Shown here piece by piece: positions 8,018 through 48,894 of a DNA stretch of 64,000 nt. The position numbers were made by a program, and so were the translations under genes. Origin of the DNA: Schlegelella aquatica (GTDB taxonomy: Bacteria > Pseudomonadota > Gammaproteobacteria > Burkholderiales > Burkholderiaceae_C); assembly GCF_026013905.1 (NCBI RefSeq), contig NZ_CP110257.1:1674001-1738000 (forward strand), given 5' to 3'. Each line of letters opens with the position of its first letter. The stretch's first letter is position 1. The notes under the pieces are model-generated. The model made no database searches and was not told where the DNA came from. It saw only the letters and a list, made by a program, of their open reading frames with translations.

Positions 8018-8064
8018 AGGGTGCAACGTGCGCCATCGTTCCCGCTTGCGCCAGCGCAAGCGGG
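8018..8064 (-). promoter_or_regulatory. Crp/Fnr-type promoter of phaB
   Basis: Read on the minus strand, TTGCGCTGGCGCAA (8046-8059) is the core of a perfect inverted repeat with 11-bp arms and a 2-bp centre (8041-8064). A poor -10 match, CACCCT (8018-8023), is centred 32 bp downstream. The dyad itself is among the most symmetrical in the window. Confidence 0.6.
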
Positions 8065-8160
8065 CGGGGCCCGTCCCCGACCCGATCTGAGTCTTCACAT
8101 CCCTTGTCCCGGGCGGGAGCACGGCAGCAGAAGATGGGCAACACCTTGCGACAGCCGCAC

Positions 8161-8610
8161 TCAGCCCGCGTGCGGCAGCGCCTGGGCGATGCGATGCTCG
8201 AGTTCGCTGAGGCCGAAGTGGGTGAGGTCCAGGTCGACGGCATGTTTGAGCGCCCCGAGCGTCGCGTCGCCGAACTCCGCCTTGAGCTCGCCGAGGAAGG
8301 GCGAGGCGGCGAAGACCGTGAGCGAGCGGCACTTTCCGGCCTGCACTCCTTCGTCGAGGTAGTCCGCGATCTCGCGCGCGAAGTGTTCCCGCTCCTTGCG
8401 GTGCAGTTCGGTGCGCGGCGCGAACGACGTCCCGCGGGAACGCTGGTCGGACTTGGTGCGACCGTGCGGCGCGTCACCGAGCTCGGTGTCGGACAGGCGG
8501 CTTTGAGGGTGCTCGAACTGAGCCACCGGCACGAGCGGGGCGTCCGGGGCTTCTCGGCTGAGCAGCCTCGCTTGCGAGGCGTTGGCGACGAGGAACCAGT
8601 CTGGCTTCAT
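8161..8610 (-). CDS. Host attachment protein family (PF10116-like)
   Basis: The 149-residue protein matches the family first described in Agrobacterium as required for attachment to host cells. It starts MKPDWFLVANASQARL, has a central FAREIADYLDEG helix and the SLTVFAASPFLGEL segment. The fold resembles eRF1/Pelota-type domains, and the biochemical role is unknown. In free-living proteobacteria the gene often sits among stress genes, as here between phaB and universal stress protein genes. It is not evidence of a phage. Confidence 0.75.
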   Translation of the reverse strand: MKPDWFLVANASQARLLSREAPDAPLVPVAQFEHPQSRLSDTELGDAPHGRTKSDQRSRGTSFAPRTELHRKEREHFAREIADYLDEGVQAGKCRSLTVFAASPFLGELKAEFGDATLGALKHAVDLDLTHFGLSELEHRIAQALPHAG

Positions 8611-8729
8611 AAAGGGCTCCTAGGGCAAGGGCGACGTCCGATCTCGGCGAGTCCGCGACTGGGGCTCCAAGCCCCGATGCAGCCTGCGCGCTGCACGGCG
8701 CGCCTGCCGCTCGGAGGGCCGATGCGCGC

Positions 8730-8771
8730 ACGATAGGATGAGACGCCGCGGTGGCCATTGAGAAATGTCGG
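8730..8771 (-). promoter_or_regulatory. Candidate promoter with half Crp/Fnr site
   Basis: On the minus strand only the right half (CTCAA) of the dyad pattern is present at 8758-8771. A TATCGT hexamer (8730-8735) lies 32 bp away. It would give the host-attachment gene a leader of about 110 nt, which holds a small GGGGCT-CCA-AGCCCC hairpin. The missing left half makes this weak. Confidence 0.3.
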
Positions 8772-8818
8772 TTTCGCCGCGTCTCGAAACCCCGGCGCGG
8801 CACGCCCGCCACGTGCGT

Positions 8819-9355
8819 TCAGTCGTACAGCCGCTCGTCGAGCGGCCACAGCCGCGACAGGTGCACAAGCACGTTGCGGTCGGCGCCCGGCGCGTCGTAG
8901 CGCCACACGGCGGCGCCGGGGCGCAGCTTGCCCATGCGCGAGGCGAGGATGTTCACGCGGCAGACTGGGAACCCCTGCACCTCGAGCGCACGCACCTCGT
9001 CTGCGGCCTGCGGGTCGTCGTCGCAGAACAGCCAATGGCGGGTGAACTCGTCCTGCAGGCGTGCCAGGTCGTGGCTCAGCTCCTGCGGCACCGGGGAGGG
9101 CGGTGGAAGCTCGACTTCCCCCTGTGGCGTCACTTCCAGCCAGCGGCCGTGCAAGTCGTCCTCGGCCGTCCGGCACAGCACGACATCCCGCGCGGTGTAG
9201 TAGCGCGGGAGCGCGAAGTACGATGCGCAGGGCAGTCCCTCCCGGGCGCCGATGTACCACCCGAAGACGTCCGGCCCATGCGCGAACCAGGTGACGGCGT
9301 ACAGCAGGCCCGCACCGCGAGGCGCGTAGCCGAGGTGGGCATGGCCTTCGATCAT
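8819..9355 (-). CDS. Conserved hypothetical protein in usp operon
   Basis: I do not recognise this 178-residue protein. It is soluble, rich in aromatic residues near the N-terminus (YAVTWFAHGPDVFGWYIGAR), and has no signal peptide or membrane segment. Its ATG overlaps the stop of the upstream universal stress protein gene (ATGA at 9352-9355), so the two are very probably co-translated. The long clean frame and the coupling support a real gene. Confidence 0.7.
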   Translation of the reverse strand: MIEGHAHLGYAPRGAGLLYAVTWFAHGPDVFGWYIGAREGLPCASYFALPRYYTARDVVLCRTAEDDLHGRWLEVTPQGEVELPPPSPVPQELSHDLARLQDEFTRHWLFCDDDPQAADEVRALEVQGFPVCRVNILASRMGKLRPGAAVWRYDAPGADRNVLVHLSRLWPLDERLYD

Positions 9356-9837
9356 GGGTCGCTCCCTGGCGGCAAGGCCTGCGGCACGAGCGTCTCGCGC
9401 TGGCGAACCAACAGCACCGGCACGGAGCTGCCGTGGACCACGGCCTGCGCATTGCTGCCGAGGACCAACTTGTTGAACCCGCGGCGACCGTGCGTGCCCA
9501 TGACCACGAGGTCGGCAGGGATGCGCACCGCCTCCTGCAAGATGACGTCGGCCACGCGTCCCGTGGCCACCTCCCGCAAGAGCATGACGCTCGGCACGCC
9601 CGCTTCGCTCGCAGCGGCCGCTGCGCGACCGAGGAGGTCCTCGCCGTAGCGGCGCAGCCGAGCGCGCAGCCGGTCTGCGGCCTCATCGGGTGCCGCGCCT
9701 AGGGTCAGTGGGAAGCTCTCGAGCGCGTGCAGCAAGTACAAGGAGGAACGCTGCGCCTGAGCCACGGCGAGGGCCTCGCGCAGCCCGCATTCGGCTGTCG
9801 CGCTGCCGTCCAGAGGCACGAGAATTCGTTGGTACAT
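9352..9837 (-). CDS. Universal stress protein, single UspA domain
   Basis: The 161-residue protein begins MYQRILVPLDGSATA, typical of UspA. It ends with the nucleotide-binding loop VMGTHGRRGFNKLVLGSNAQ, the G-2x-G-9x-G-S/N pattern of ATP-binding UspA proteins. The frame extends upstream to 9930, but the ATG at 9837 gives the canonical N-terminus. It is the first gene of a two-gene operon with a coupled hypothetical protein. Universal stress proteins of this type are often induced by anaerobiosis or growth arrest. Confidence 0.9.
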   Translation of the reverse strand: MYQRILVPLDGSATAECGLREALAVAQAQRSSLYLLHALESFPLTLGAAPDEAADRLRARLRRYGEDLLGRAAAAASEAGVPSVMLLREVATGRVADVILQEAVRIPADLVVMGTHGRRGFNKLVLGSNAQAVVHGSSVPVLLVRQRETLVPQALPPGSDP

Positions 9838-10790: not shown

Positions 10791-10878
10791 AACGACGCGC
10801 TGAGGGCTTCACGCCGCGGGGGCAAGGCGCGAGCGGACGAACCGGCGCAGGCGCGCAGGGCGCCGCTCGGGTGCGCGC

Positions 10879-10919
10879 TTGCCCTTTCTCAAGCCGCGGC
10901 GGGCGGATTGGACTAAACC
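10879..10919 (+). promoter_or_regulatory. Crp/Fnr-type promoter of the 93-residue gene
   Basis: TTGCCCTTTCTCAA (10879-10892) keeps the outer TTG and CAA. A TAAACC hexamer (10914-10919) is centred exactly 31 bp downstream. The predicted start point is near 10926, giving a leader of about 70 nt. Confidence 0.6.
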
Positions 10920-10996
10920 GTCAACTGCGGCGGCCGCCCGCGCTCGATGAGCGCATCAGTTCGTCATCGGGCGGCCGGACGGAGCAAGGAGCAGCG

Positions 10997-11278
10997 ATGG
11001 CCTCGACGGTTTCAGGCTTTGTGAAGCAGCACGTGTTCTGCCGTTGTGATCGGGCGGTCAGCGCGATGGCAGGCGTCTCCTTGATCGTGCGCCCGGAAGG
11101 GCTGGACAGCGAACGCGAGATCAACGAGTGGTGGTTGGTCTCCGGTGAACTGGCCGCTCGGCTGCGGTCGGCGGGCTTGCCGGTGGTGCAACTGGAGGAG
11201 TTGAGCTTCTGGGGGCGCTTCGCCACCGGCGATGCTCTGGCCGAGGACCCCGACCTGCTGGGAGCGCTGCCGTCCTAG
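10997..11278 (+). CDS. Small hypothetical protein (93 aa)
   Basis: I do not recognise a family. The protein has an N-terminal half with two close Cys residues (HVFCRCD) and an amphipathic, acidic C-terminal half; it has no signal peptide or membrane segment. The ATG at 10997 is preferred over longer frames because it follows a predicted Crp/Fnr-type promoter. Its place between a clpP paralogue and a ybhB-like gene suggests a role in the stress programme, but this is only guilt by association. Confidence 0.6.
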   Translation: MASTVSGFVKQHVFCRCDRAVSAMAGVSLIVRPEGLDSEREINEWWLVSGELAARLRSAGLPVVQLEELSFWGRFATGDALAEDPDLLGALPS

Positions 11279-11341
11279 GGAGGCGAGGCGCCCGCACGTG
11301 CCGGCGCGGCCGTTTTCCGGTTCTTTGATGGAGGAGTCGTC

Positions 11342-11821: not shown

Positions 11822-11909
11822 GCCCGAGGGACGTGGGGCTCGGCCGGCTGATGGCCCCGGGCCCTGCGCACGTGAATCAGGAGGGCTGACCACGGACACC
11901 ATCGAGCTC

Positions 11910-13013: not shown

Positions 13014-13040
13014 GGGCGGCCCGGACGACCGCTTGGACGA

Positions 13041-14072: not shown

Positions 14073-14113
14073 ACTCTGCCGCCCCTCGCCCCGCCCGGTT
14101 TGATGCCGCGCAA
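14073..14113 (-). promoter_or_regulatory. Crp/Fnr-type leaderless promoter of ddh-like gene
   Basis: On the minus strand TTGCGCGGCATCAA (14100-14113) lies exactly 31 bp, centre to centre, from CAGAGT (14073-14078). Seven nucleotides separate the hexamer from the ATG at 14065, so transcription should begin at or within a base of the start codon. Confidence 0.7.
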
Positions 14114-14174: not shown

Positions 14175-14216
14175 TTGCGTTGGCGCAAGCGGCGCCCGTC
14201 TGCCGGCGCGCATAAA
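14175..14216 (+). promoter_or_regulatory. Crp/Fnr-type promoter of archease-rtcB
   Basis: TTGCGTTGGCGCAA (14175-14188) is followed by CATAAA (14211-14216) centred 32 bp away. The predicted start is near 14222, leaving a leader of about 15 nt to the archease ATG. Confidence 0.7.
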
Positions 14217-14236: not shown

Positions 14237-14656
14237 ATGGAAGACCGCTGGGAACACTTCGATCACGGGGCGGACATCGGCGTGCGGGGCTACGGAAGCA
14301 CCAAGGCCCGCGCGTTCGAGCAGGCAGCGCTCGCGCTGACTGCGGTGGTGACGCCGCCCGAGCGCGTGCGGCAACAGCAGGCCGTGCCCATCGTGTGCCA
14401 GGCGCCGGACGACGAGCTGTTGCTTGCGGACTGGCTCAACGCGGTGGTCTACCAGATGGGCGTGCGGCACATGCTCTTCGGCGGCTTCCGGGTCGAGCTG
14501 CGCGAGGACGGCCTTCATGCCGTGGCGCTGGGCGAGCCGGTTTCGGTGCAGCGCCACGAACCGGCCGTGGAGGTCAAGGGTGCCACGTACACCGAGCTCA
14601 AGGTGCAACCGCTGCCCGAGGCCGGATGGGTGGCACAGACGGTGGTGGACGTTTGA
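14237..14656 (+). CDS. Archease
   Basis: The 139-residue protein has the archease pattern: [16 protein letters not shown] at the N-terminus (metal-binding His and Asp), [11 protein letters not shown] in the middle and the [13 protein letters not shown] strand near the C-terminus. Archease activates the RNA ligase RtcB by promoting guanylylation and multiple turnover. It sits 2 bp upstream of rtcB in the same orientation. The gene is intact although its partner is broken. Confidence 0.93.
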
Positions 14657-17377: not shown

Positions 17378-17419
17378 ACGATGCGGCGGAGGACGGCCGC
17401 GGGTATTGCGTTGGCGCAA
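17378..17419 (-). promoter_or_regulatory. Crp/Fnr-type promoter of the HPF-CSD gene
   Basis: TTGCGCCAACGCAA on the minus strand (17406-17419) is a clean dyad. A weak CATCGT hexamer (17378-17383) is centred 32 bp away. The predicted leader is about 50 nt. Confidence 0.55.
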
Positions 17420-17491: not shown

Positions 17492-17532
17492 TTGATGGAA
17501 CGCAATCGGCTGCGCCTGCGAGCACCTAAGCT
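17492..17532 (+). promoter_or_regulatory. Orphan Crp/Fnr-type promoter
   Basis: TTGATGGAACGCAA (17492-17505) is one of the best matches in the window. TAAGCT (17527-17532) is centred exactly 31 bp downstream, predicting a start near 17539. It points into a stretch with no recognised gene, so its transcript is unknown. Confidence 0.7.
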
Positions 17533-18762: not shown

Positions 18763-18830
18763 AGCTTCGCAGGCCGGACGGGGCGGCGCATGATCTTGCG
18801 CAAGTCGCGGCTCGCCGGCGCGCCTAGATT
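18763..18830. promoter_or_regulatory. Shared divergent Crp/Fnr-type promoter, prs and usp
   Basis: One dyad, ATGATCTTGCGCAA (18790-18803), lies exactly 31 bp from TAGATT (18825-18830, plus strand). It also lies exactly 31 bp from GAAGCT (18763-18768, minus strand). The plus-strand -10 box is only 6 nt from the usp ATG, so that mRNA should be leaderless. The prs mRNA would have a leader of about 18 nt with a ribosome-binding site. Confidence 0.7.
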
Positions 18831-18836: not shown

Positions 18837-19652
18837 ATGGACACCCCCGACGAACGCCGGGCCGCCAGCGGATGCCGGTCCATCCTCGTGCACCTCGATG
18901 GCGGCGTGCATGCTGCCAGCCGGCTCGCCTGGGCCCGCGCGCTCGGTGCGCGGCTCGGCGCACGGGTCGAGGCGCTCTACGCGACCGTCCCCGGGCCGCC
19001 CGACATCGAGACCCAGCACCAACGCCAGGCACGCCTCACCTTCGACGCGGCGGCCTCGACCCCAGGCTGGCCGCTCGCGCTGCGCACCTCCGACGCGCAG
19101 GGGGGCCTGTCTGCCCTCTTTCACGCGGCCTTGACGGCCGACCTCGTGGTGGTGGGCCAGCGCGACCCGATGGACGCCAAGGCCTTCGACCTGCCCGCAG
19201 ATCTGGCGGAGCGCCTGGCCCGGGACACGGGGTGTGCCACGGCCCTCGTGCCCTGGCGTGCGGGAAGGCCGCTGGATCGCCTGGAGGGCGCGCTGGTCGC
19301 GTGGCGGCCTGATCGGGTCTCCGCGGTCGCGCTGCGGGGCGCCCTGCCGCTGCTGGGGCTCGCCCGGCGCATTCATCTCGTGACCTGGAGCGCTGACGCC
19401 GCTTCCCGCGTGCAGGACCAGCAGCAGGTGGTGGATTACCTGCGCCTGCATGGGCTACACGCCATCGAGCGCCACGAAGGGCCGCCGCCCGACGACGCGG
19501 GCACCGCCTTGCTCACCCTGGCAGCCGCCGTGGAGGCCGATCTCCTCGTGATGGGATGCTACGGACACAGCCCGGGGCGTGAGCTGCTGTTCGGTGGCGC
19601 TACGGCCACGGTGCTGCAACACATGCACCTGCCCGTCCTGACGGCGCACTAG
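18837..19652 (+). CDS. Universal stress protein, two-domain
   Basis: The 271-residue protein is a tandem of two UspA-like halves. The N-terminal half is degenerate, beginning after about 12 residues with SILVHLDGG. The C-terminal half keeps the nucleotide loop VMGCYGHSPGRELLFGGATA. The start ATG lies 6 nt after a predicted -10 box, implying leaderless translation. It is followed after 5 bp by an APH-fold kinase gene, with which it forms an operon. Confidence 0.9.
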   Translation: MDTPDERRAASGCRSILVHLDGGVHAASRLAWARALGARLGARVEALYATVPGPPDIETQHQRQARLTFDAAASTPGWPLALRTSDAQGGLSALFHAALTADLVVVGQRDPMDAKAFDLPADLAERLARDTGCATALVPWRAGRPLDRLEGALVAWRPDRVSAVALRGALPLLGLARRIHLVTWSADAASRVQDQQQVVDYLRLHGLHAIERHEGPPPDDAGTALLTLAAAVEADLLVMGCYGHSPGRELLFGGATATVLQHMHLPVLTAH

Positions 19653-21431: not shown

Positions 21432-21473
21432 ACCTTGACACCGAGGCGCGCAATGGCGGTTGAGATTCCGCAA
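21432..21473 (-). promoter_or_regulatory. Crp/Fnr-type promoter of phosphoribosyltransferase gene
   Basis: TTGCGGAATCTCAA on the minus strand (21460-21473) is centred 32 bp from CAAGGT (21432-21437). The leader would be about 75 nt. Confidence 0.55.
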
Positions 21474-22898: not shown

Positions 22899-23026
22899 GG
22901 CGGCGCCTCGTGGGCGTCTGGCTTCGGAGTGCGAAAGAGCGATTCTTCGCCGCCCGACGCGCCGGGACTTGAGCGTCCTCAAACCGCCTCCCGCCCTCCC
23001 TGCGTTCGCGCACGGCGGGCGGGCTT

Positions 23027-29570: not shown

Positions 29571-29611
29571 TTGCGATCCCGCAAGGCCGCGAGCTCGCTG
29601 ACATCTAGATT
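29571..29611 (+). promoter_or_regulatory. Crp/Fnr-type promoter of hydrolase-ppsA operon
   Basis: TTGCGATCCCGCAA (29571-29584) is centred exactly 31 bp from TAGATT (29606-29611). The start point would be near 29618, with a leader of about 80 nt. Confidence 0.72.
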
Positions 29612-29699: not shown

Positions 29700-30360
29700 A
29701 TGGAAGGAGCCCATTCACCGCCACGCCGAGTGCAGGTCGGAGCGCACGCACTGGAAGGCGATCTGACCCTGCCGCCGCAGGCTCGCGGCCTCGTCGTCTT
29801 CGCTCACGGCAGCGGCAGCACGCGCCGCAGCCCGCGCAACGTGCAAGTGGGCCAGTCGCTGCACGCCAGAGGGTTCGGCACGCTGCTGTTCGACCTGCTC
29901 ACGCCCGAGGAAGCATCCGACCGCCACAACGTGTTCGACATCGCGCTGCTCGGCAGCCGCGTGGTCGAGACGATCGACTGGCTCGACCAACGCGCCGCCC
30001 TCGCCCGGCTGCCCGTGGGCCTGTTCGGGGCCAGCACGGGCGCTGCCGCCGCCCTCGTGGCCGCGGCCGAGCGGCCCGAGCGCATCTTCGCGGTCGTCTC
30101 GCGGGGCGGGCGGCCCGACCTGGCCAGCGAGGTGCTGCCCCGCGTGGCCGCGCCCACCCTGCTGATCGTCGGCGGCGACGACACCCAGGTGCTGGAGCTC
30201 AACCGCCTGGCGCTCAGGCAGCTGCCCCAGGGCGCCGAGCTCGCCGTGGTGCCGGGGGCGACACACCTGTTCGAGGAGCCGGGCGCGCTCGAGAAGGTCA
30301 CGCACCTGGCCTGCGGCTGGTTCGCGGCGCACCTGCCGTTGGCGGCGAAAAGGTCGCCCC

Positions 30361-30368
<8 letters not shown>
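29700..30368 (+). CDS. Alpha/beta hydrolase (dienelactone hydrolase-like)
   Basis: The 222-residue protein has VVFAHGSGS, the nucleophile elbow GASTGAAAAL, an Asp in VGGDDTQV and a His in GATHLFEE, a complete catalytic triad. Proteins of this type are often fused or adjacent to phosphoribosyltransferases in stress clusters; the substrate is unknown. Its end overlaps the predicted start of ppsA by 8 bp. Confidence 0.82.
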
Positions 30369-32862
<2,494 letters not shown>

Positions 32863-34951: not shown

Positions 34952-34992
34952 ACTCTAGAGAGGCCCCACGGGCCGCCCTTGCGATGGATCAA
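34952..34992 (-). promoter_or_regulatory. Crp/Fnr-type promoter of the diguanylate cyclase operon
   Basis: TTGATCCATCGCAA on the minus strand (34979-34992) is centred exactly 31 bp from TAGAGT (34952-34957). The dyad overlaps the last codons of the kinase gene upstream. The predicted leader is about 42 nt. Confidence 0.72.
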
Positions 34993-36534: not shown

Positions 36535-36575
36535 AGTGTGGCTCGCCCACGCGCCCCTTGCTTGCGCCACCGCAA
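36535..36575 (-). promoter_or_regulatory. Crp/Fnr-type leaderless promoter of APH/AAA kinase
   Basis: TTGCGGTGGCGCAA on the minus strand (36562-36575) is centred exactly 31 bp from CACACT (36535-36540). The ATG follows after 7 nt. Confidence 0.65.
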
Positions 36576-36596
36576 CCGTGCCGCCCTCGAGCGCCG

Positions 36597-36637
36597 TTGA
36601 GCAAACGCAACGGGCCGGCCCGACGGTTTCCTAGAGT
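36597..36637 (+). promoter_or_regulatory. Crp/Fnr-type leaderless promoter of polX remnant
   Basis: TTGAGCAAACGCAA (36597-36610) is centred exactly 31 bp from TAGAGT (36632-36637). The ATG at 36645 follows after 7 nt, so the mRNA should have no leader. Confidence 0.7.
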
Positions 36638-36644
36638 GGGTTGC

Positions 36645-37123
36645 ATGCCTGTGGTCAACGCCGATGTCGCCGCGGTCTTCGACGAGATCGCCGATCTGCT
36701 CGAAGTGCAGGACGCCAACGCGTTTCGCGTGCGCGCCTACCGGAACGCGGCCCGCATGCTCGGTGAGCTGGGGCGCGACCTCGAGCCGATGGTGGAACGC
36801 GGCGAGGATCTGGACGCCCTGCCGGGCATCGGCCCCGACTTGCGCGGCGACTTGCACACGCACACGCGCGACAGCGACGGCCAAGACGATCTGGAAGTGC
36901 TGGCCGAAGCGGCGCGCTCGACAACCTGCGCTTCGGCATCGGCCAGGCCCGCCGGGGATGGCTGGGCGTCGCCGACGTGCTGAACACGCTCACCCTGCCC
37001 GGGTTGCGCCTGTTGCTGGCGCGCACGATGGGCTGCGGCACCCCGGCAGCGCCGACCACCGCGGCCGGGCACGAGCCGCTCGGCGAGCCTCTTGCGCTCG
37101 CCCGCGCATCGCACGGACGCTGA
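36645..37123 (+). pseudogene. DNA polymerase X (PolX) gene with two internal deletions
   Basis: The first 67 codons match the PolX N-terminus with its helix-hairpin-helix (AVFDEIADLLEVQDANAFRV, LPGIGPDL). The sequence then jumps in frame to the start of the PHP nuclease domain (DLRGDLHTHTRDSDG). After about 25 codons it jumps again, out of frame, to the family C-terminus (NLRFGIGQARRGWL, DVLNTL). About 400 of 570 residues are gone. The first junction carries a GACTTGC direct repeat (36837-36855), pointing to repeat-mediated deletion. The promoter is intact. Confidence 0.8.
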
Positions 37124-37265: not shown

Positions 37266-38033
37266 ATGAACCTCTCGACCTCCGCCCTGGAGGAGAGGCG
37301 TCCAAGCCTCCAGGCCTACGCCACCGCGCAGCGCGAGCGCACCCCCTACGCCCTGTCCATTGCCGCCATGCTGCGGCTCGTGCAAGAGCATCTGCCCATC
37401 CAGCGGCGCATCGTGCACGCCGACGACGTGATCTACCAGGCGGGCCAGCGCTGCACGCACCTCTACATCGCCAACTCGGGCTTCTTCAAGCTGATGAACG
37501 GGGCGGCCGACGGCCGCGAGCAGGTGGTCGCGCTCCATTTCAAGGGCGACTGGCTGGGGTTCGACGGTCTCGCCACTGGCCAGTACTGCTGCGATGCCAT
37601 CGCCATGGACATCGGCGAGGTCTGGTCGGTGCGCTACGCGACCCTGGTCGAGCGCTGCACCGAAGTGCCGGCTCTGATGAACCTGCTGCACGCGGCCATG
37701 AGCCAGGAGATGGCGCGCGACCGCGACTTCCAGCTCAACCTGTGCACGCTTCCGGCAGACGCCCGCGTCGCCGAGTTCCTGCGCTCGCTGGTGGTGGCGC
37801 TCGAGCGCCGCGACCTGCGCACCGACAGGATCACGCTGCGCATGAGCCGGGCCGAGATCGGCAGCTACCTCGGCATGACGTTGGAGAGCGCCAGCCGGGC
37901 CCTGTCGCGCTTGGCGCGCGAGCAGGTCATCCGCTTCGCCGGCAGCGGCCGGCGCGAGGTGCAGATCCCCGACGTCAAGGCCTTGTCCGACTTCGTCCAG
38001 CGCAGCGTGAGCCCCAGCAGCGAGCGGCATTGA
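37266..38033 (+). CDS. Crp/Fnr-family transcriptional regulator
   Basis: The 255-residue protein has the effector beta-roll (DDVIYQAGQRCTHLYIANSG onward), a dimerisation helix and a winged helix-turn-helix at about 193-212, with recognition helix ESASRALSRL. The E-x-x-S-R pattern is FNR-like. There are no Cys residues in the first 60 residues, so no FNR-type iron-sulfur cluster; the effector is unknown. It lies between two Crp/Fnr-type promoters and is a strong candidate for the island's activator. Confidence 0.9.
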   Translation: MNLSTSALEERRPSLQAYATAQRERTPYALSIAAMLRLVQEHLPIQRRIVHADDVIYQAGQRCTHLYIANSGFFKLMNGAADGREQVVALHFKGDWLGFDGLATGQYCCDAIAMDIGEVWSVRYATLVERCTEVPALMNLLHAAMSQEMARDRDFQLNLCTLPADARVAEFLRSLVVALERRDLRTDRITLRMSRAEIGSYLGMTLESASRALSRLAREQVIRFAGSGRREVQIPDVKALSDFVQRSVSPSSERH

Positions 38034-38050: not shown

Positions 38051-38091
38051 TTGCGCCATCGCAAGCGCACCGGGGGCGGCGTTCCTACAGT
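38051..38091 (+). promoter_or_regulatory. Crp/Fnr-type promoter of CBS gene
   Basis: TTGCGCCATCGCAA (38051-38064) is centred exactly 31 bp from TACAGT (38086-38091). The leader is about 24 nt and carries an AAGGAA ribosome-binding site. Confidence 0.75.
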
Positions 38092-38121: not shown

Positions 38122-38643
38122 ATGAGCATTGATTCGATCGCACAACGCGACGTGGTCGTCATCGACGCCCACGCCACTCTCGAAGAAGCCGCGCAGCTGA
38201 TGCGCGACCGCCACATCGGCTCGCTGGTCGTCACCCGCGGCGACGCGGGCGAAGCGCAGATGGTCGGCATCGTCACCGACCGCGATCTCGCCTTGCGAGT
38301 CGTCGCGGACGGCGTGGACCCTCAGTCGCCGGTGGAAGACGTGTGCAGCGACTCCGTGGTGGCCGTGCTCGACACCGCCAGCATGGCCGAAGCGGCGCAG
38401 GCCATGCACGAAGCGGGCGTGCGACGGCTGGTGCTGGTCGACCGCGACCGCCGGCTCCGGGGCATCGTCACGCTGGACGATCTGATCGCCTCCTACGCGG
38501 AGCAACTCGGCGACCTCGCCGGCGCCCTGGACCGCGGCCGCGAGCAGGAGGCCGAGGCCGACACCGACGCGGGGCAGCCGCTGGGGCCCGTCCTGGTGCC
38601 CTCGGACATCGCCACCACCTGGCGCCGCATGATGGAGCCCTAG
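38122..38643 (+). CDS. Tandem CBS-domain protein
   Basis: The 173-residue protein is built from two CBS motifs (VVIDAHATLEEAAQLMRDRH with MVGIVTDRDLALRV, and VLDTASMAEAAQAMHEAG with RGIVTLDDLIASY) and an acidic tail. CBS pairs bind adenosyl nucleotides and act as energy sensors. The DosR-regulon protein Hrp1 (Rv2626c) has the same build. It is intact, unlike the second CBS gene at 16298-16765, and leads an operon with a small secreted protein. Confidence 0.9.
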   Translation: MSIDSIAQRDVVVIDAHATLEEAAQLMRDRHIGSLVVTRGDAGEAQMVGIVTDRDLALRVVADGVDPQSPVEDVCSDSVVAVLDTASMAEAAQAMHEAGVRRLVLVDRDRRLRGIVTLDDLIASYAEQLGDLAGALDRGREQEAEADTDAGQPLGPVLVPSDIATTWRRMMEP

Positions 38644-39041: not shown

Positions 39042-39253
39042 GAGTCTGGGCGGCAGAAGGAAAGCCCTGACTGCGCATGAAGGTACGTTTCGTGGCCATG
39101 GCCGCGAACGACCTTCCCTATGACTCGCGGCAGATGCTGCTGCCGGAGGCGATCCGATCCAGGACGGTCTGCCCGGAGGGTACCCAGTCGCCCACGATGC
39201 TGCAGGCGGTCAAGGACCACCTGGCGTGCTGTCCGAACAAGCACGACGGTGCC

Positions 39254-39361
39254 AGCCCAGGGCGGTGGGGCGCGCAGGCGCCGGACATCAAGGAGCAGGC
39301 GGCGGCCACCGGCCGGCGCCGGGGGACAGTCCGGCGACTGCGTGCCCCGCCGCCCTGGGCT
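39254..39361. repeat. Long imperfect inverted repeat, 33-bp arms
   Basis: Arms 39254-39286 and 39329-39361 pair over 33 positions with three differences, two of which would be G-U pairs in RNA. The loop is 42 nt. The right arm is part of dispersed repeat family B, so this locus is two family B ends in opposite orientation. Confidence 0.85.
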
Positions 39362-39408
39362 CGCTCGATCTTTGATCGGGCCCCGTACGCTCTGCCGCCC
39401 GGACTCCT
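39311..39408. repeat. Dispersed repeat family B, copy 1
   Basis: This segment of about 98 bp is closely similar to 47864-47961. Both share GGCCGGCGCCGGGGG at one end, CGCTCTGCCGCCC near the other and an inner stem-loop. In copy 1 the outer arms AGTCCGG and CCGGACT are fully complementary. Confidence 0.85.
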
Positions 39409-39476
39409 GGCTGTGAAGTGTCGAACGCGCCAGCTGCGCCCCTCCCCCGCCTCCCCAGGCCGGTCAACGAAAGCGC

Positions 39477-39505
39477 TTCTGGGTGTAGCGCAATTGCGCT
39501 ACAGT
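39477..39505 (+). promoter_or_regulatory. Promoter and operator of toxin-antitoxin operon
   Basis: A perfect 20-bp palindrome, TGTAGCGCAATTGCGCTACA (39484-39503), overlaps TACAGT (39500-39505). A poor -35 (TTCTGG, 39477-39482) lies 17 bp upstream. The palindrome is the expected autorepression site for the antitoxin. Only 6 nt separate the -10 box from the antitoxin ATG, so the mRNA is predicted leaderless. Confidence 0.7.
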
Positions 39506-39511
39506 GCAGGC

Positions 39512-39805
39512 ATGAAGACCGCACAACTGCCCGCTGTCCGGGTCACCCCGGCCGTCCGCGAGGAGATCGAGGGCGCCTTGCGCGAAGGCGAAAGCCTGTC
39601 CGAGTTCGTCGAGGCCTCGGCCCTGAAGGAAGCCCGGCGCCGGCGCGCGCAAGAGGAGTTCCTGGCGCGGGGGCGCGCCTCCTTCGAGCAGGCCATGCGC
39701 AGCGGCGTCACCCACCCCGCTGACGAGGCGCTGGCGAAGATGCGCGCGCAGGTGAAAGCCTCGATGGACGAGCTGCGCCGCAAGCTCGCGGCCGGTCGCC
39801 GGTGA
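39512..39805 (+). CDS. ParD/YacA-type antitoxin
   Basis: The 97-residue protein starts with a short ribbon-helix-helix-like segment (LPAVRVTPAVREEIEGALRE, then ESLSEFVEASALKEA). A long charged helical tail that would bind the toxin follows. It is the first gene of a type II toxin-antitoxin operon. Its stop codon overlaps the GTG start of the toxin gene. The palindrome upstream supports autoregulation. Confidence 0.82.
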   Translation: MKTAQLPAVRVTPAVREEIEGALREGESLSEFVEASALKEARRRRAQEEFLARGRASFEQAMRSGVTHPADEALAKMRAQVKASMDELRRKLAAGRR

Positions 39806-40113
39806 GCTACCGGGTCGAGTTCACGCAGGAGGCGCTGGAAGACCTGGCCCACCTGTGCAGCTTCCTCGAACACCAAGCGTGGGAGCGGGGCGACCCGGAT
39901 CTGCCCGAGCGCGCGCTCGATGCGATCGCCGCCGGCGTGGCCCTGCTGGCGGTCAACCCGTACACATGCCGCAAGGCCGACGACGACCCGCTCGAGCGCG
40001 AGCTCATCATCCCGTTCGGGGCGGCGGGCTACGTCGCCTTGTTCCGGATCGCGAGCCAGGAGCTGGTCGCGATCTCGGCGCTCCGTCACCAGCGTGAGGA
40101 CGACTACCACTGA
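39802..40113 (+). CDS. RelE/ParE-family toxin
   Basis: The 103-residue protein has the RelE/ParE layout: YRVEFTQEALEDLAHLCSFL at the N-terminus, a central YTCRKADD turn, and a final strand-rich part with YVALFRIASQELVAISALRHQ. Family toxins act on translation or on DNA gyrase; which one applies is not clear here. The GTG start is overlapped by the antitoxin stop, giving coupled translation. Confidence 0.85.
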   Translation: MSYRVEFTQEALEDLAHLCSFLEHQAWERGDPDLPERALDAIAAGVALLAVNPYTCRKADDDPLERELIIPFGAAGYVALFRIASQELVAISALRHQREDDYH

Positions 40114-42678: not shown

Positions 42679-42747
42679 TGTATCGCCTGCCCCACCGGCC
42701 CCGGAGTTGACGCCGCGCAAGCAGGTGCCCAAGTCCAATCCTAGACT
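42679..42747. promoter_or_regulatory. Shared divergent Crp/Fnr-type promoter, ATPase and flavodoxin-usp
   Basis: TTGACGCCGCGCAA (42707-42720) is centred exactly 31 bp from TAGACT (42742-42747, plus strand). It is 32 bp from GATACA (42679-42684, minus strand). The ATPase mRNA would be leaderless. The flavodoxin mRNA would have a leader of about 49 nt with GGAGG. Confidence 0.7.
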
Positions 42748-42802: not shown

Positions 42803-43321
42803 ATGGGCAAGGTTCTGGTCGTCAGTTACTCCTACACCGGCACCAGCCGGCAGGTGGCCACCACCCTGGCTGGACTGCAGGGCTGGGCCACCGGCGAGAT
42901 CTCGGAGGAACGGCCGGGCCGCGGCGACGGGCGTTGCGTGCTCGACTCGCTGCTGCGTCGGCAGCCGCCGATCCGCTACGAGGGGCCGCCGCCCGAGCAA
43001 TTCGCCGCGGTGGTGCTGGTCGCGCCCATCTGGTTGTACCGCCTGGCCGGCCCGATGCGCACCTTCGTCGCGCGCTACCGCGAGCGCCTGCCCGCGGTCG
43101 CCGTCGTCTCGGCCATGGGCGGCCGCGGCGCCCCGAATGCAGTGGCCGAGATCGGGCGTCTGCTGGGGCGCTCGCCGATCCTGAGCACAGCCTTCCTCTC
43201 GCGCGAAGTGGAGGACGGCAGCTACGGCTCCCGTCTGCGGGCCTTCGGCGAGGCGGTGGACAAGGCCGTGGAGGGCACCGAGGTGTTGCGGCCTTCGACC
43301 CTCTCGCCCAAGACCGCCTGA
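42803..43321 (+). CDS. Flavodoxin-family protein
   Basis: The 172-residue protein has a flavodoxin-like FMN phosphate loop (SYSYTGTSRQVA) and a second flavin-contact region (VLVAPIWLYRLAGPMR). It may carry electrons or reduce quinones under low oxygen. It leads a two-gene operon with a universal stress protein gene 17 bp downstream. Confidence 0.82.
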   Translation: MGKVLVVSYSYTGTSRQVATTLAGLQGWATGEISEERPGRGDGRCVLDSLLRRQPPIRYEGPPPEQFAAVVLVAPIWLYRLAGPMRTFVARYRERLPAVAVVSAMGGRGAPNAVAEIGRLLGRSPILSTAFLSREVEDGSYGSRLRAFGEAVDKAVEGTEVLRPSTLSPKTA

Positions 43322-44169: not shown

Positions 44170-44199
44170 CTTCATCCAGCCTCGTCCCGACGCGCAGCG

Positions 44200-44217: not shown

Positions 44218-44295
44218 TCTTCACCGGCTCCGGCGCGTCCTCGCGGCCACACACCGTTACAGAGTCCGAGAGTCCCCACGAGGATGATGGGACTT

Positions 44296-44349
44296 CGTTC
44301 CAGTCCGCAGGGTGTTGCGTGTTCCGCTCCCGCCAGACGGAATGGAACG
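44296..44349. promoter_or_regulatory. Inverted repeat upstream of response regulator gene
   Basis: CGTTCCAGTCCG (44296-44307) and CGGAATGGAACG (44338-44349) match in 11 of 12 positions as inverted repeats with a 30-nt spacer. It could be an operator pair or an mRNA stem ahead of the regulator at 44375. Confidence 0.35.
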
Positions 44350-44374
44350 GCAAGCCGCTGCGCCCGCGTCCGCC

Positions 44375-45094
44375 ATGACCCACCATCTGGCTGTGCTCGA
44401 CGACGAACCGGAGATCACGCTCTTGCTGGCCAACTACCTCCAAGGGCAGGGCTTTCGCGTCACCCAGTTGCACAGCGGCCGGGAGCTCCTGGCCCTCATG
44501 GCCGCCGACAAGCCGGAGCTCGTGCTGCTGGACCTCGGATTGCCCGGCGAAGAAGGCTTTGCGATTGCCCGGCAGTTGCGCGAGCACTGGCGCTGCGGCC
44601 TCGTCATCGTCACGGGCCGAGGAGACCCCGTCGACAAGATCGTCGGCCTGGAGATCGGCGCGGACGACTATGTCACCAAACCCTTCGACCTGCGCGAACT
44701 GCTGGCGCGCATCAAGGCGGTGCTGCGCCGCCTCGGCCCCGAGGAGCCCGCGCCGCCCGCGCCCTCCCCCGCGCGCCAGCAGTTGCGCTTCGCAGGGTGG
44801 ACGCTGGACATGGCATCGCCCCGGCTGCTGGATGCGGCCGGGCGTGAAGTGGCGCTGACCGCCGGCGAGTTCGACCTCCTCGCGGTCTTCGTGCGCCACC
44901 CGGGTCGCGTGCTCTCGCGCGACTTCCTGCTCGAGCAGACCCGCGGGCGCGGGGCGGGCCCCTTCGACCGCACGATCGACGTGCAGGTGAGCCGCCTGCG
45001 CAAGAAGCTGGACGACGATCCCGAGACCCCGCAGTTGATCAAGTCGGTACGCGGCGCCGGCTACCTCTTCGTGCCCGTGCCGGAGGCCGCATGA
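44375..45094 (+). CDS. OmpR-family response regulator
   Basis: The 239-residue protein has a receiver domain (VLDDEPE, LLDLGLPGE, VTKPFD) and a winged-helix output domain (LTAGEFDLLAVFVRHPGRVL, RTIDVQVSRLRKKL, SVRGAGYLF). The ATG at 44375 gives the usual N-terminus; an upstream ATG at 44342 is possible. Its stop overlaps the ATG of the kinase gene, forming a coupled pair. Confidence 0.9.
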   Translation: MTHHLAVLDDEPEITLLLANYLQGQGFRVTQLHSGRELLALMAADKPELVLLDLGLPGEEGFAIARQLREHWRCGLVIVTGRGDPVDKIVGLEIGADDYVTKPFDLRELLARIKAVLRRLGPEEPAPPAPSPARQQLRFAGWTLDMASPRLLDAAGREVALTAGEFDLLAVFVRHPGRVLSRDFLLEQTRGRGAGPFDRTIDVQVSRLRKKLDDDPETPQLIKSVRGAGYLFVPVPEAA

Positions 45095-47160
45095 GCCCGC
45101 CCGGTGACGAGACTTCCCTCTACCGCTCGCTGTTCGCGGCCTATCCCGACGGCCTGCTGCTGGTGGACCTGGAAGGCCGCATCGTGCTCGCCAACGCGGC
45201 GGCCGCGCGCCTGCTCGGCTACCCGATCGAGGAGCTGACCGGCCTGCAGGTCGACGAGCTGGTGCCCGACGCCATCCGCTCCCGCCACGCCGCCTATCGG
45301 GACGCCTATGGGCGCGCCCCTCGCCCCCGGCCCATGGGGCTTCAGATGGACCTGGTCGCCAAGCGGCGCGACGGCAGCGAGGTGATGGTGGAGATCGCCC
45401 TCAGCCCGCTGCAGGACCAGGGGCTGCCCTACGTGGTGGCGGCCATCCGCGACGTGGGGGCTTACCCGCGCGTGCGGCAGGCCCTGCGTCGCGCCCGCTA
45501 TGCCGAACACATCGCACAGATGAGCCGCCTCGCCGTCCAGGAGCCGGACCCGGAGCTTCTGTTGCACCAGGTGCCCGCAGCCGCCGCCGACGCCTTGCAA
45601 GTGGAACTGGTGCAGGTCTACCTTCTGGAGCCCGACGCCCAGTCCTTCCGGCTGGCCAGCGGCGTGGGGCTGCTGCCAGAAGAGCCGCTCGGCGCACTGC
45701 TGCCCAACCGCCCCGACACCCTGATCGGCTTTCTCGCTGCGCAGGACGGCCAGCCCGTGACAGTGCACGACCACGCGACCGAGGCCCGGTTCCGCCCGCC
45801 GCAGGCCTGCCTGCGCCACGGCCTCGTCAGTGCGCTCGGCGTCCCCCTGTTCGACAAGGGCCGGGTCATGGGTGTGCTCTTGGCCGGTTCTCGGCAGCCC
45901 GATCGCTTCGGCGACGACGAGCGGCGCTTCCTCGAATCGCTCGCCAACCTGCTCACCACCCTCTTGCTTCGGGCGCAAAGCGAGGAAGCCTTGCGCCACG
46001 CCCAACGACTGGAGAGCGTAGGGCAGCTGACCGGCGGCATCGCACACGACTTCAACAACCTGCTGACGGTCATCCAGGGCAACCTGCAGGTCCTGGAGGC
46101 GCTGCCCGAGATCGAAGCGGCCGAGCACGGGCAGCAGCCGCTGGCCTCCGCCATGCGCGCGACCCGGCGCGCCGCGGAGCTCACCGGCAAGCTGCTCGCC
46201 TTCTCGCGCAGGCAGATGCTGCAGCCCAGCCCGGTCCACCTGCCGGCCCTGCTGCAGTCGCTGTCCGACATGCTGGCGCGCACGCTCGATCAGCGCATCC
46301 GCATCCGCGTGCAGGTCGCGCCCGAGTGCCCCGCCTGCCTGGCCGACCCCGGCCAGCTCGAATCGGCGCTCCTGAACATCGCCATCAATGCGCGCGACGC
46401 CATGCCGCAGGGCGGCGAACTGATCTTCAGTGCCCGCCCCTGCGAGAGGCTGCCGGCGCCCCTGCACCAGGAGTTGAGCGAAAGCCTCGGCACGCCGCCC
46501 CGGCACGAGAACTACGTGGCCGTGTCGATCAGCGACACCGGCACCGGCATGCCGGAGGCCGTCAGGAAGCGCGCCTTCGAACCCTTCTTCACCACCAAGG
46601 AGGCCGGCCGCGGCACGGGCCTCGGGTTGAGCACCGTGTACGGCTTCGTGAAGCAGTCCAAGGGCGGTGTCACGATCGACAGCACCCCGGGCGATGGCAC
46701 CACCGTCACGCTCTACCTTCCCCGCGTGCCGACGGCCCCGCAGGCACCCGCGGCCCACGGGACGGCCACGCACATCACACCAGGCCTCAAGGTCCTCGCG
46801 GTCGAAGACGAGCCCGAAGTGCTGCGGGTGGTGCAGGCCTTCCTCGCCGGGTGGGGGTGCGAGGTGACCCCGGCGCGCAACGCCGAACAGGCGCTCGGCT
46901 TGCTTCAGGCCCAGGGCGCCTCGTTCGACCTGCTGCTCACCGACCTCGTCCTCGGCCCCGGCCCCAGCATGCCCGGCACGCAGCTCGCCGCCCGCGCGCG
47001 CCAACTGCACCCGGGCCTTGCCGTGGTGCTGATGTCGGGCTACGCATCGGACCTCCTGGCCAGCGCCTCGCAGGGCGAGCCGCAGCAGCCGGAGCTGCTG
47101 CACAAGCCCTTCACGAGGGAGGAGTTGGCCGCCGCCATTGCGAAGGCCATGCGCCGGTGA
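45091..47160 (+). CDS. PAS-GAF hybrid sensor histidine kinase
   Basis: This 689-residue soluble kinase has a PAS domain (about 8-125), a GAF domain (about 155-300), a phosphoacceptor in GGIAHDFNNLL, a HATPase domain (NIAINARDAM, TGTGMPE, GRGTGLGLS) and a C-terminal receiver (VEDEPEVLRV, LLTDLVLGP). It should partner the OmpR-type regulator directly upstream. No membrane segment is visible, so it senses a cytoplasmic signal. Confidence 0.92.
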   Translation: MSPPGDETSLYRSLFAAYPDGLLLVDLEGRIVLANAAAARLLGYPIEELTGLQVDELVPDAIRSRHAAYRDAYGRAPRPRPMGLQMDLVAKRRDGSEVMVEIALSPLQDQGLPYVVAAIRDVGAYPRVRQALRRARYAEHIAQMSRLAVQEPDPELLLHQVPAAAADALQVELVQVYLLEPDAQSFRLASGVGLLPEEPLGALLPNRPDTLIGFLAAQDGQPVTVHDHATEARFRPPQACLRHGLVSALGVPLFDKGRVMGVLLAGSRQPDRFGDDERRFLESLANLLTTLLLRAQSEEALRHAQRLESVGQLTGGIAHDFNNLLTVIQGNLQVLEALPEIEAAEHGQQPLASAMRATRRAAELTGKLLAFSRRQMLQPSPVHLPALLQSLSDMLARTLDQRIRIRVQVAPECPACLADPGQLESALLNIAINARDAMPQGGELIFSARPCERLPAPLHQELSESLGTPPRHENYVAVSISDTGTGMPEAVRKRAFEPFFTTKEAGRGTGLGLSTVYGFVKQSKGGVTIDSTPGDGTTVTLYLPRVPTAPQAPAAHGTATHITPGLKVLAVEDEPEVLRVVQAFLAGWGCEVTPARNAEQALGLLQAQGASFDLLLTDLVLGPGPSMPGTQLAARARQLHPGLAVVLMSGYASDLLASASQGEPQQPELLHKPFTREELAAAIAKAMRR

Positions 47161-47258
47161 CGGTGCGGCGGCCCGGCCGTCCCTGGCGGCCCGTGCCCTC
47201 CCGCCACCCTGGGCTGGGGGAGTGAGGCGCTTGCGCGACAACCGGGGCGGCCCCGGGA

Positions 47259-47308
47259 TTGATGCGGCGCAAGTGACGTGCCTTCCCAGCTCTTAGTCTT
47301 CCTAGACT
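47259..47308 (+). promoter_or_regulatory. Crp/Fnr-type promoter of OTCase-like gene
   Basis: TTGATGCGGCGCAA (47259-47272) is centred exactly 31 bp from TAGTCT (47294-47299). A second hexamer, TAGACT (47303-47308), lies 40 bp away. The leader would be about 35-40 nt. Confidence 0.62.
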
Positions 47309-47344
47309 TAAGCCCCCTGTCACCGTCCTGTCACAGCGCTTGGC

Positions 47345-47833
47345 ATGAAGCACAGCCTCCATTACCGACTGCTGTCCCCGAGAGGCTTGTCGGCCGCCGA
47401 TGCCACCGCATTGGTGGCGACTGCCCTCGGATTGAAACGGGCGGCGGCACAGGGCTTGGCGCCAACGCTCCTGCGGGGCAAGCATCTCGCGGTGTTCGCC
47501 GACGACCCCGCGTGCGAGGCCGCCCTGGCCTTCGAGCGGGCGGCCAGCCGATTGGGCGCGCGCGTGTCTCATGTGCGAGCGCACGAGGAGCTGCTGCGGG
47601 CCGACGGCTCCCACGTCATCGTGCTCGCCCGCCTGTACGACGCGATCGAGTGGGAAGGCTTGTCGCCCGAAGCCGCGCTGCGTCTGCAGGACAGGATCGG
47701 CATTCCCGTCTTCTACGGGCTCGCAGAACCGGGCCATCCGCTCGCCGGCCTGTTGTCCCGCATGCCCGAGCCCGTGTCCGAAGAAGACATCCTCTACCTG
47801 GCCCAAGCGGTCCTGATGAACTCCATCAACTGA
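47345..47833 (+). CDS. Truncated ornithine-carbamoyltransferase-like protein
   Basis: The 162-residue protein follows the OTCase/ATCase N-terminal domain: LRGKHLAVFADDPACEAALA, FERAASRLGARVSHV, VLARLYDAIEW, and IPVFYGLAEPGHPLAGLL. The carbamoyl-phosphate motif STRT is replaced by DPAC, and the whole ornithine-binding domain is absent. It cannot be a normal transcarbamylase. The clean frame and a dedicated promoter suggest it has been given a new role, perhaps as a carbamoyl-phosphate or protein binding factor; this is speculative. Confidence 0.72.
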   Translation: MKHSLHYRLLSPRGLSAADATALVATALGLKRAAAQGLAPTLLRGKHLAVFADDPACEAALAFERAASRLGARVSHVRAHEELLRADGSHVIVLARLYDAIEWEGLSPEAALRLQDRIGIPVFYGLAEPGHPLAGLLSRMPEPVSEEDILYLAQAVLMNSIN

Positions 47834-47863
47834 AACAGCCGTGCCCAAGCGCCGTCCTTTGTG

Positions 47864-47961
47864 GGCCGGCGCCGGGGGAGAGTCCGGCGACTGCGCGCCC
47901 CGCCGTCCTGGGCCCGCTCGACCTTCGCTCGAGCCTCGGACGCTCTGCCGCCCAGACTCCT
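47864..47961. repeat. Dispersed repeat family B, copy 2
   Basis: Closely similar to 39311-39408. One outer arm differs by a base (CCAGACT), and the inner stem keeps pairing through different bases (GCTCGA with TCGAGC). The copy ends at the stop codon of the convergent HPF-like gene. Confidence 0.85.
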
Positions 47962-48346
47962 AACAGGCCGACGTTCCTTCTTCTTCGAGCCCTGCTGCCT
48001 CACCGCGCGCCACGCTGAGGCGGCGGGCGCCCAGGCAACTGCGCTGCGCCCGCAGGACGTGTTCGAGCTGCCGGCAAATGCCCTCGAAGGCATCCCACAA
48101 CGCCGCATCGACGTCATCGTGTCGCAGCCGACTGACCGTCAGCTCGTGCCGGGGCAGCCGCAGATCGATCCGCACCAGGTACGGCATTCCGTGGCGAAGC
48201 TGCTTGTGCTGAAGTTCGATTTCCACCCTGCACGCGATGAGGTCCGCACACCGCAGGACCAGCGTTTCCATCTTCTCGCGAACTGCGAGTTCGACCGTCC
48301 GTGAGGCCTCCATCCCGTGGAAGCGAATCTCGAATCGTTGTTTCAT
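47960..48346 (-). CDS. HPF/RaiA-type ribosome hibernation protein
   Basis: The 128-residue protein has a single HPF-like domain (FEIRFHGMEASRTVELAVRE, a metal-free beta-alpha fold) resembling the N-terminal domain of the 16776-17321 protein but without a cold-shock domain. The C-terminal 30 residues are not conserved. It ends inside a family B repeat. GGAGG is present 10 nt before the ATG. Confidence 0.75.
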   Translation of the reverse strand: MKQRFEIRFHGMEASRTVELAVREKMETLVLRCADLIACRVEIELQHKQLRHGMPYLVRIDLRLPRHELTVSRLRHDDVDAALWDAFEGICRQLEHVLRAQRSCLGARRLSVARGEAAGLEEEGTSAC

Positions 48347-48504
48347 TCTTGAGCCTCCGCATAGGCGGCACCACCCAGACGTTGCGACGGTCTGCAAGAG
48401 CGTGGTGGGTGGCACCGTCGAATGGGCGGTTCGCCGGCGGCGCGGTGGCATCGAGCCCGATGTGGGCCGTGCCCCATGCGTCGCCAAGACCTGCCCTGAA
48501 CGCG

Positions 48505-48546
48505 AAGATGCCGTGCAGGTGCACATGCGCACCTGCGATTCCTCAA
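48505..48546 (-). promoter_or_regulatory. Candidate Crp/Fnr-type promoter of the second hpf gene
   Basis: TTGAGGAATCGCAG on the minus strand (48533-48546) has one outer mismatch. A weak CATCTT hexamer (48505-48510) is 32 bp away. The leader would be long (about 150 nt). Confidence 0.35.
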
Positions 48547-48853
48547 TTCGGCGACGCCTCGCGTTGTGAAACGTACTGCGCGCGCTCACGCACCCGATCG
48601 GCGCCAAAAAGGGGCGGCTTCCCTTGTGAGTCAGGCCGAGACGGCGTGCAGAGCGCATGAATACAGGGGCCGTGCGTGCACGCCGACGCGGCAGGGCGTC
48701 CAGAGCCGCTTCCCAACGCGCGCACCTCCTCCTCGAAGACAGACCGGGGCACCCTCGATCGGCTGAACACGATCTGAATGCGACCGTGTGTTTCCTCTTT
48801 CACCGGGACAGGGAGGGCCGCACCACCTGGTCAGGGCATACGCAGTGGCGCAA

Positions 48854-48894
48854 TTGAGAACTCGCAAACGCCGAGATCCGAACAGGGAGATGCT
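48854..48894 (+). promoter_or_regulatory. Crp/Fnr-type promoter of the cytochrome c gene
   Basis: TTGAGAACTCGCAA (48854-48867) is centred exactly 31 bp from GATGCT (48889-48894). The leader would be about 44 nt. Confidence 0.65.

Follow-up and report, generated by a model that had tools for sequence, protein, structure and literature searches.

The window analysed here is a 64-kb stretch of the 3.35-Mb genome (one contig) of Schlegelella aquatica, and in a 40-kb part of this beta-proteobacterial chromosome one regulatory signal, the 14-bp dyad TTG-N8-CAA, recurs many times at a fixed distance from the promoter. Two genes in the window encode Crp/Fnr-type regulators, P0001 (285 amino acids (aa), 2590..3447, plus strand; Pfam HTH_Crp_2, cNMP_binding and Crp) and P0002 (255 aa from the ATG at 37266, 37266..38033, plus strand; assigned by Pfam, with a longer frame from 37092). 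An OmpR-type response regulator (44312..45094) and a PAS-GAF hybrid histidine kinase (45091..47160), both also Pfam assignments, are encoded further along the plus strand. The candidate genes served by the signal encode universal stress proteins (USPs), phosphoenolpyruvate (PEP) synthase, a CBS-domain protein, cytochrome c, a carbamoyltransferase-like protein and a hibernation-factor fusion, among others. No Rfam family matched the window at gathering threshold, and no tRNA was found in it.

All 15 dyads listed in a first-pass annotation of this DNA are present where it placed them, and its description of them as mostly TTGMK-N4-CGCAA is accurate: 13 of the 15 fit TTGMKN4CGCAA on one strand. 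The exceptions are 10879 and 42707, the latter with TTGAC opposite its CGCAA arm. Six TTGN8CAA matches were absent from that list (7221, 13647, 15411, 22969, 31816 and 34600). The window total is 21, compared with a mean of 4.89 in shuffled sequence, where none of 100 shuffles reached 21. The narrower TTGMKN4CGCAA occurs at 14 places (20 strand-matches; shuffle mean, 0.39 strand-matches). Genome-wide there are 376 TTGN8CAA sites including these 21 (Poisson P 1.2e-5). TTGMKN4CGCAA has 54 strand-matches, which a manual count reduces to 44 places, 14 of them in the window and the remaining 30 spread over 3.28 Mb (P 4e-15). As own-genome background we took 40 evenly spaced 20-kb stretches (800 kb), in which the wider motif occurs 92 times (7.36 per 64 kb, vs 21 in the window) and the narrower at 5 places (0.40 per 64 kb, vs 14). 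The density test that the annotation had proposed was run on this background; the window density was not reproduced elsewhere, and the claim stands. The sequences flanking the window sites are not alike.

Spacing was measured as the distance (d) from the dyad centre to the centre of a -10 hexamer, either strict (TANNNT) or relaxed (VANNNT, first base varied). Strict hexamers stand at d=31 on 7 of the 42 strands of the 21 TTGN8CAA sites and at d=32 on none; the only other matches over d=11–89 are one at d=40 and one at d=66, and the chance of seven at one distance is about 1e-15. All seven belong to listed sites, namely 17492(+), 29571(+), 34979(-), 36597(+), 38051(+), 42707(+) and 47259(+). 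Six more of the 15 have a relaxed hexamer, at d=31 for 14100(-), 36562(-) and 48854(+) and at d=32 for 8046(-), 17406(-) and 21460(-). The earlier statement that a -10 hexamer lies 31 or 32 bp away in most cases is therefore correct if the first T may vary (13/15) and incorrect with strict TANNNT (7/15). Varying the first base adds five matches at d=31 and four at d=32, with 0.73 per distance elsewhere (largest, three), and the 92 dyads of the 800-kb background gave one match at d=31 and none at d=32. A reverse test started from the 71 TANNNT hexamers of the window. At d=31 seven of them have a perfect dyad and one has a dyad with five of six positions (18790); at none of the 15 remaining distances between 24 and 39 is there a perfect dyad, though d=27 has two 5/6 dyads. 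A 14-bp dyad 31–32 bp from a -10, which we took as the mark of class II membership, is found with strict hexamers for 7 of the 21 dyads, plus one further site with one mismatch.

The surroundings of these eight promoters are as follows. On the plus strand, 29571..29611 (TTGCGATCCCGCAA, -10 TAGATT at 29606-29611) stands ahead of genes for an alpha/beta hydrolase (29700-30368) and PEP synthase (30361-32862), 36597..36637 (TTGAGCAAACGCAA, -10 TAGAGT at 36632-36637) ahead of an HHH_8 protein (36645-36983), and 38051..38091 (TTGCGCCATCGCAA, -10 TACAGT at 38086-38091) ahead of the CBS-domain protein (38122-38643), which is encoded by the next gene after P0002. Promoter 42707..42747 (plus; TTGACGCCGCGCAA, -10 TAGACT at 42742-42747) is followed by a flavodoxin-like frame (42803-43321; weak Pfam match, below cut-off) and then a USP domain in another frame, and a P-type ATPase frame begins at 42673 on the opposite strand. 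Promoter 34952..34992 (minus; TTGATCCATCGCAA at 34979-34992, -10 TAGAGT at 34952-34957) precedes a gene at 34903-34610 and one for a GGDEF protein (34613-32955). The one-mismatch promoter, 18790..18830 (plus; ATGATCTTGCGCAA, mismatch in the distal arm, -10 TAGATT at 18825-18830), was not in the earlier list and lies just ahead of a USP-domain gene (Pfam, 18837-19652). The remaining two are 47259..47299, described below, and 17492..17532 (plus; TTGATGGAACGCAA at 17492-17505, -10 TAAGCT at 17527-17532); the latter has no clear target and may drive a small RNA or a gene that escaped recognition, with no Rfam match at gathering threshold.

As a positive control we applied the same scan to 79 loci (L022-L100, 1.30 Mb) holding P0002 relatives at 34–39% identity. 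By pattern scan, the protein at 77 of these loci carries the cysteines CxxCx5C (a pattern of CxxCx5C alone; an over-strict cysteine pattern matched just 16/79), so we regard them as canonical fnr neighbourhoods, and the fourth cysteine is also present in the proteins inspected, at every sixth locus. The control loci gave 38 matches at d=31 and 74 at d=32, compared with a mean of 6.48 elsewhere and a next largest of 22; many of the 112 promoters are orthologous and not independent, with 66 unique dyads among them. In the FixK2 regulon of Bradyrhizobium diazoefficiens, the nosR box TTGATCCAGCGCAA has two mapped starts, +40.5 and +67.5 (excerpt from PMC5582078). The control peak and the start at +40.5 together identify d=31/32 as a class II signature. 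The class II Crp/Fnr geometry proposed in the first-pass annotation is thus backed by the enrichment, the exact spacing, the fnr-locus control, the conservation of a promoter in relatives (below) and a mapped FixK2-type start, the last as given in that excerpt. Spacing 31 is found in 7/7 strict window promoters vs 38/112 control promoters (P 0.0008). At loci from the genus and at P0001-relative loci, d=31 occurs in 12/15 and d=32 in 3/15, vs 7 to 0 in the window (P 0.52); since these loci prefer 31 as well, the notion of an island-private spacing was dropped.

We therefore read the dyads, with a probability of about 0.85, as putative operators for an activator of the Crp/Fnr family, placed at the class II promoters of a survival island. 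With this geometry, a Crp/Fnr dimer would sit at about -40.5, overlapping the -35 region, and would recruit sigma-70 RNA polymerase to the -10 centred 31 bp downstream. The genes served resemble the low-oxygen and energy-starvation survival sets of FixK2 and of the lxa locus, and would be expected to be induced at low oxygen.

The conservation of this arrangement was followed at relatives' loci. P0002 orthologues (58–67% identity) occur at five loci in four genomes of the genus; leaving aside two G003 fragments, identity then drops to about 38% in the next-best matches. At four of the five loci (G001, G004, G007 and G002b) the response regulator (68–74%) and the hybrid kinase (60–63%) are both near the P0002 orthologue. 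Footprinting across these loci centred on the strict promoter 47259..47299 (plus; TTGATGCGGCGCAA, -10 TAGTCT at 47294-47299), which precedes the carbamoyltransferase-N-like gene (47345-47833). This gene is matched in G001, G007 and G002b; in G004 it is unmatched at E 1e-6, but on visual inspection the frame after the promoter looks like its G002b counterpart. A dyad with TANNNT stands ahead of the carbamoyltransferase-like gene at d=31 in G001 and G004 and at d=32 in G007 and G002b, the G004 gene being a probable one, so a matching promoter is present at three relative loci and probably at the fourth. In G001, G004 and G002b the dyad lies between the carbamoyltransferase-like gene and a divergent P0002. 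The proximal arm is CGCAA in the window, GTCAA in G001, CTCAA in G004, ATCAA in G007 and GTCAA in G002b. At G002a, the fifth locus, where the orthologue of P0002 is 67% identical, there are four class II sites, two with proximal CGCAA. The window's own carbamoyltransferase-N-like frame is 162 aa, and 229–272 aa frames follow the same promoter in three relatives.

Among the closest known systems is that of FixK2, which has no iron-sulphur (Fe-S) cluster and belongs to an Alphaproteobacterium. The FixK2 regulon is described in PMC9104804, PMC5582078 and PMC6710368. Its box consensus is TTGA/C-N6-T/GCAA (14 bp), with boxes such as TTGCGCGAGCGCAA (excerpt from PMC9104804), and on reading all 15 listed window sites conform to TTG(A/C)-N6-(T/G)CAA. 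In Table 2 of that paper the proximal arm is CGCAA in 6 of 26 boxes, and one shared divergent site, entered twice, is TTGCG-N4-CGCAA. The likeness extends to the spacing precedent and to an overlapping gene set, as the same source names among FixK2 targets a universal stress protein, a host attachment protein, ppsA, a CBS protein and a cytochrome c, all with counterparts in the window. FixK2 is expressed under the control of the FixLJ two-component system; by contrast, the window pair is a PAS-GAF hybrid kinase with an OmpR-type regulator, and P0001 and P0002 are closer to FNR in PDB searches. Linkage alone would allow a pathway on the FixLJ-FixK2 pattern, running from the kinase through the response regulator to P0002. 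By later papers' descriptions (excerpts from PMC6127331 and PMC8509486), the nearest beta-proteobacterial parallel appears to be the lxa locus, a 50-gene low-oxygen survival cluster with six universal stress proteins. Herbaspirillum seropedicae, with its Fnr1 and Fnr3 regulons, likewise has several Fnr paralogues, promoter classes with unequal half-sites and a site described as class II whose centre is at -42, but all three of its Fnr orthologues are oxygen-sensitive according to the excerpt from PMC5934665, whereas the two paralogues in the window have no Fe-S cysteine set. ANR/FNR class II promoters (TTGAT-N4-ATCAA) share the core TTG-N8-CAA and, as in the control loci, the class II geometry; they differ in that the controls prefer d=32 over d=31 with GT or AT in the proximal arm, while in the strict island set the arm is always CG and the spacing always 31. 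By these comparisons the sites are of a known, FixK2-like kind; the layout is ordinary in itself, the arm form less so.

In the strict set the CGCAA proximal arm is fixed (7/7, or 8/8 with 18790), and in the control loci it is rare, with CG at 2 of 66 unique dyads; it occurs at 2 of 15 in the genus and P0001-relative loci. Control promoters have GT or AT ahead of the proximal CAA in 96 of 112 cases. Among the 30 TTGMKN4CGCAA places outside the window, none of the 22 examined has TANNNT at 31 or 32, and class II sites with other arms occur there at 450819, 1664656, 2518709 and 3147205. The first-pass annotation had set the CGCAA half apart from that of classical FNR sites. Any novelty this implied is unsupported, as CGCAA lies inside the published FixK2 consensus and listed boxes of FixK2 and NnrR targets carry it; a claim that the arm is a new specificity was rejected on the same ground. 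Nor is it supported as a hallmark of P0002 orthologues: relatives keeping P0002 mostly have GT, CT or AT, and no TTGMKN4CGCAA cluster was found near the G007 orthologue.

As to the regulator, E. coli FNR holds its cluster with C20, C23, C29 and C122, and E..SR in the recognition helix marks FNR-type DNA recognition. All four cysteines are present in the genome's own canonical Fnr (L001, G000:C1 near 2.024 Mb), while P0001 retains one N-terminal cysteine and P0002 none of the four. Against the NCBIfam Fnr model NF008365 (cut-off 228), own Fnr scores 243.3, P0001 117.8 and P0002 103.1. Lacking the cluster cysteines and falling below the cut-off, P0001 (42–50% identical to six relatives) and P0002 are thus not sensors that work through an Fe-S cluster as FNR does. 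Their recognition helices, AHETVSR in P0001 and TLESASR in P0002, compared with KLETVSR in own Fnr, have E..SR in common, so both are Fnr-like in DNA reading. In PDB sequence searches both proteins score higher to FNR than to FixK2. P0002 is the likeliest main regulator of the sites, because such a site adjoins its gene at related loci and the two-component neighbours travel with it, and P0001 and canonical Fnr may share sites with it. Upstream of fnr itself, at G000:C1:2024229, lies the dyad TTGATCTGTCTCAA, flanked at d=32 by AAGAAT in the direction of fnr and by CACAGT in the opposite direction; autoregulation of fnr through it is possible.

Several observations weigh against the operator reading or the choice of P0002. 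Six of the 21 TTGN8CAA sites (7221, 10879, 13647, 14175, 15411 and 34600) have neither TANNNT nor VANNNT at 31 or 32 on either strand, and the strict site 17492(+) has no convincing protein gene downstream. The nosR precedent also has the second mapped start, +67.5, and no -35/-10 elements were seen there by its authors (excerpt from PMC5582078). P0001, P0002 and Fnr are alike in their key recognition residues, which leaves no basis in sequence for preferring one of them, and since the sites near P0002 orthologues are mostly non-CGCAA, the arm varies within the P0002 family.

The most credible alternative, though we consider it clearly less probable than an island regulator, is that canonical four-cysteine Fnr drives these promoters and tolerates CGCAA as a variant. 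Own Fnr has the Fe-S cysteines and an E-T-V-S-R helix, FixK2 boxes include CGCAA forms (Table 2 of PMC9104804), and a canonical TTGATCTGCGTCAA is found in the window at 15411, albeit with no -10 at 31 or 32. However, sites of the CGCAA class cluster in the island, the outside places examined have no strict -10 at the right distance (0/22), and the control promoters favour d=32 over d=31 (74 vs 38) and rarely have a proximal CG (2/66 unique dyads). It is unlikely that the regulator is P0001, or a heterodimer among P0001, P0002 and Fnr whose orientation is set by unequal arms, a model for which the Fnr3-Fnr1 hybrid sites proposed in Herbaspirillum offer a published precedent (excerpt from PMC5934665). 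Its basis is the asymmetry of the strict set, where CG is proximal in 7/7 and distal in 2/7 (P 0.021), or 8/8 vs 2/8 with 18790 added (Fisher P 0.007). However, this asymmetry weakens to 10/12 vs 4/12 with four chosen relaxed promoters (P 0.036) and 13/17 vs 8/17 with all nine (P 0.16), and relatives' loci show none (CG 2/15 on each side). Because it fades in this way, and because 14100(-), with ATCAA, is a clear exception, polarity is not claimed, and as proof of a heterodimer it was demoted to this rival.

We give almost no credence to the idea that the 14-mers have no part in regulation and arose by chance or as a repeat in G+C-rich DNA. Three of them (13647, 31816 and 34600) do lie within gene frames with no TANNNT at 31 or 32, but the shuffles, the 800-kb background and the exact spacing led us to reject such an origin, the differing flanks also speak against it, and for the strict set the spacing test rules it out. 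A more far-reaching version of the operator reading is that the regulon is private to the island: Fe-S-less P0002, perhaps with P0001, and its operators would have drifted together to polar, near-fixed CGCAA-proximal sites at 31 bp, insulated from the Fnr regulon (RTCAA, mostly 32 bp around relatives' fnr), with several targets leaderless. We hold this as a rather doubtful proposal. If the arm difference did insulate the sites from Fnr, the island would be a compact case of Crp/Fnr paralogues dividing sites despite identical key residues. With the operator reading itself, the outcome is a computed regulon for a beta-proteobacterial low-oxygen-type survival island, with 8 strict promoters and about 9 weaker candidates.

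Start codons close to the -10 were considered in 12 promoters selected by us, the eight strict ones plus four relaxed ones. The latter are 14073..14113 (minus; TTGCGCGGCATCAA at 14100-14113, CAGAGT at 14073-14078; proximal arm ATCAA), 22942..22982 (minus; TTGAGGACGCTCAA at 22969-22982, AAGAAT at 22942-22947; proximal arm CTCAA), ahead of an AMP-binding protein from 22898, 36535..36575 (minus; TTGCGGTGGCGCAA at 36562-36575, CACACT at 36535-36540), and 48854..48894 (plus; TTGAGAACTCGCAA, GATGCT at 48889-48894), ahead of cytochrome c (48945-49370). An ATG follows the -10 after 7 nucleotides (nt) at 36597(+) (ATG 36645), at the divergent 36562(-) (ATG 36527, AAA_33 protein 36527-34989) and at 14100(-) (ATG 14065), and after 6 nt at 18790(+), and we predict leaderless mRNAs from these four start codons. 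At a background of 0.038, the chance of 4 in 12 is about 8e-4. Tandem dyads 35 bp apart serve two divergent genes within 36535-36645, each with its own -10 and 7-nt gap. The carbamoyltransferase promoters have the 7-nt gap in G004, G007 and G002b, not in G001 or the window. Of 110 promoters in the control loci, 39 have a start 6–7 nt past the -10, which almost always belongs to a frame of 750–815 aa; the one such gene checked (L025:16098-18449) encodes a heavy-metal P-type ATPase, which on our reading is CcoI-like and a predicted conserved leaderless Fnr target. The short gap between -10 and ATG recurs at Fnr-type promoters generally and is no island speciality. A literature search on leaderless starts at FNR class II promoters returned no paper that, by its title, deals with them. 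At five further loci (L218, L220, L221, L223 and L224), frames of 393–418 aa start 7–8 nt past CACAGT, CAAAGT or CAGAGT at a class II Fnr-type dyad; the L220 frame, the sole one checked, is radical SAM, HemN-like.

The remaining listed dyads have weaker -10 matches. On the plus strand, 14175..14216 (TTGCGTTGGCGCAA, CATAAA at d=32) precedes an archease gene (14237-14656), and the dyad at 10879..10892 (TTGCCCTTTCTCAA, TAAACC at d=31) a 93-aa frame (10997-11278). On the minus strand, dyad 17406..17419 (TTGCGCCAACGCAA, CATCGT at d=32) stands ahead of the hibernation-factor/cold-shock fusion (17357-16776), 8046..8059 (TTGCGCTGGCGCAA, CACCCT at d=32) ahead of a short-chain dehydrogenase (7989-7237) and 21460..21473 (TTGCGGAATCTCAA, CAAGGT at d=32) ahead of a phosphoribosyltransferase (21356-20703). 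The host-attachment gene (8161-8610) has no listed site ahead of it. Within the island, 39077-40113 encodes a YlcI/YnfO-family protein followed by a ParE-type toxin.

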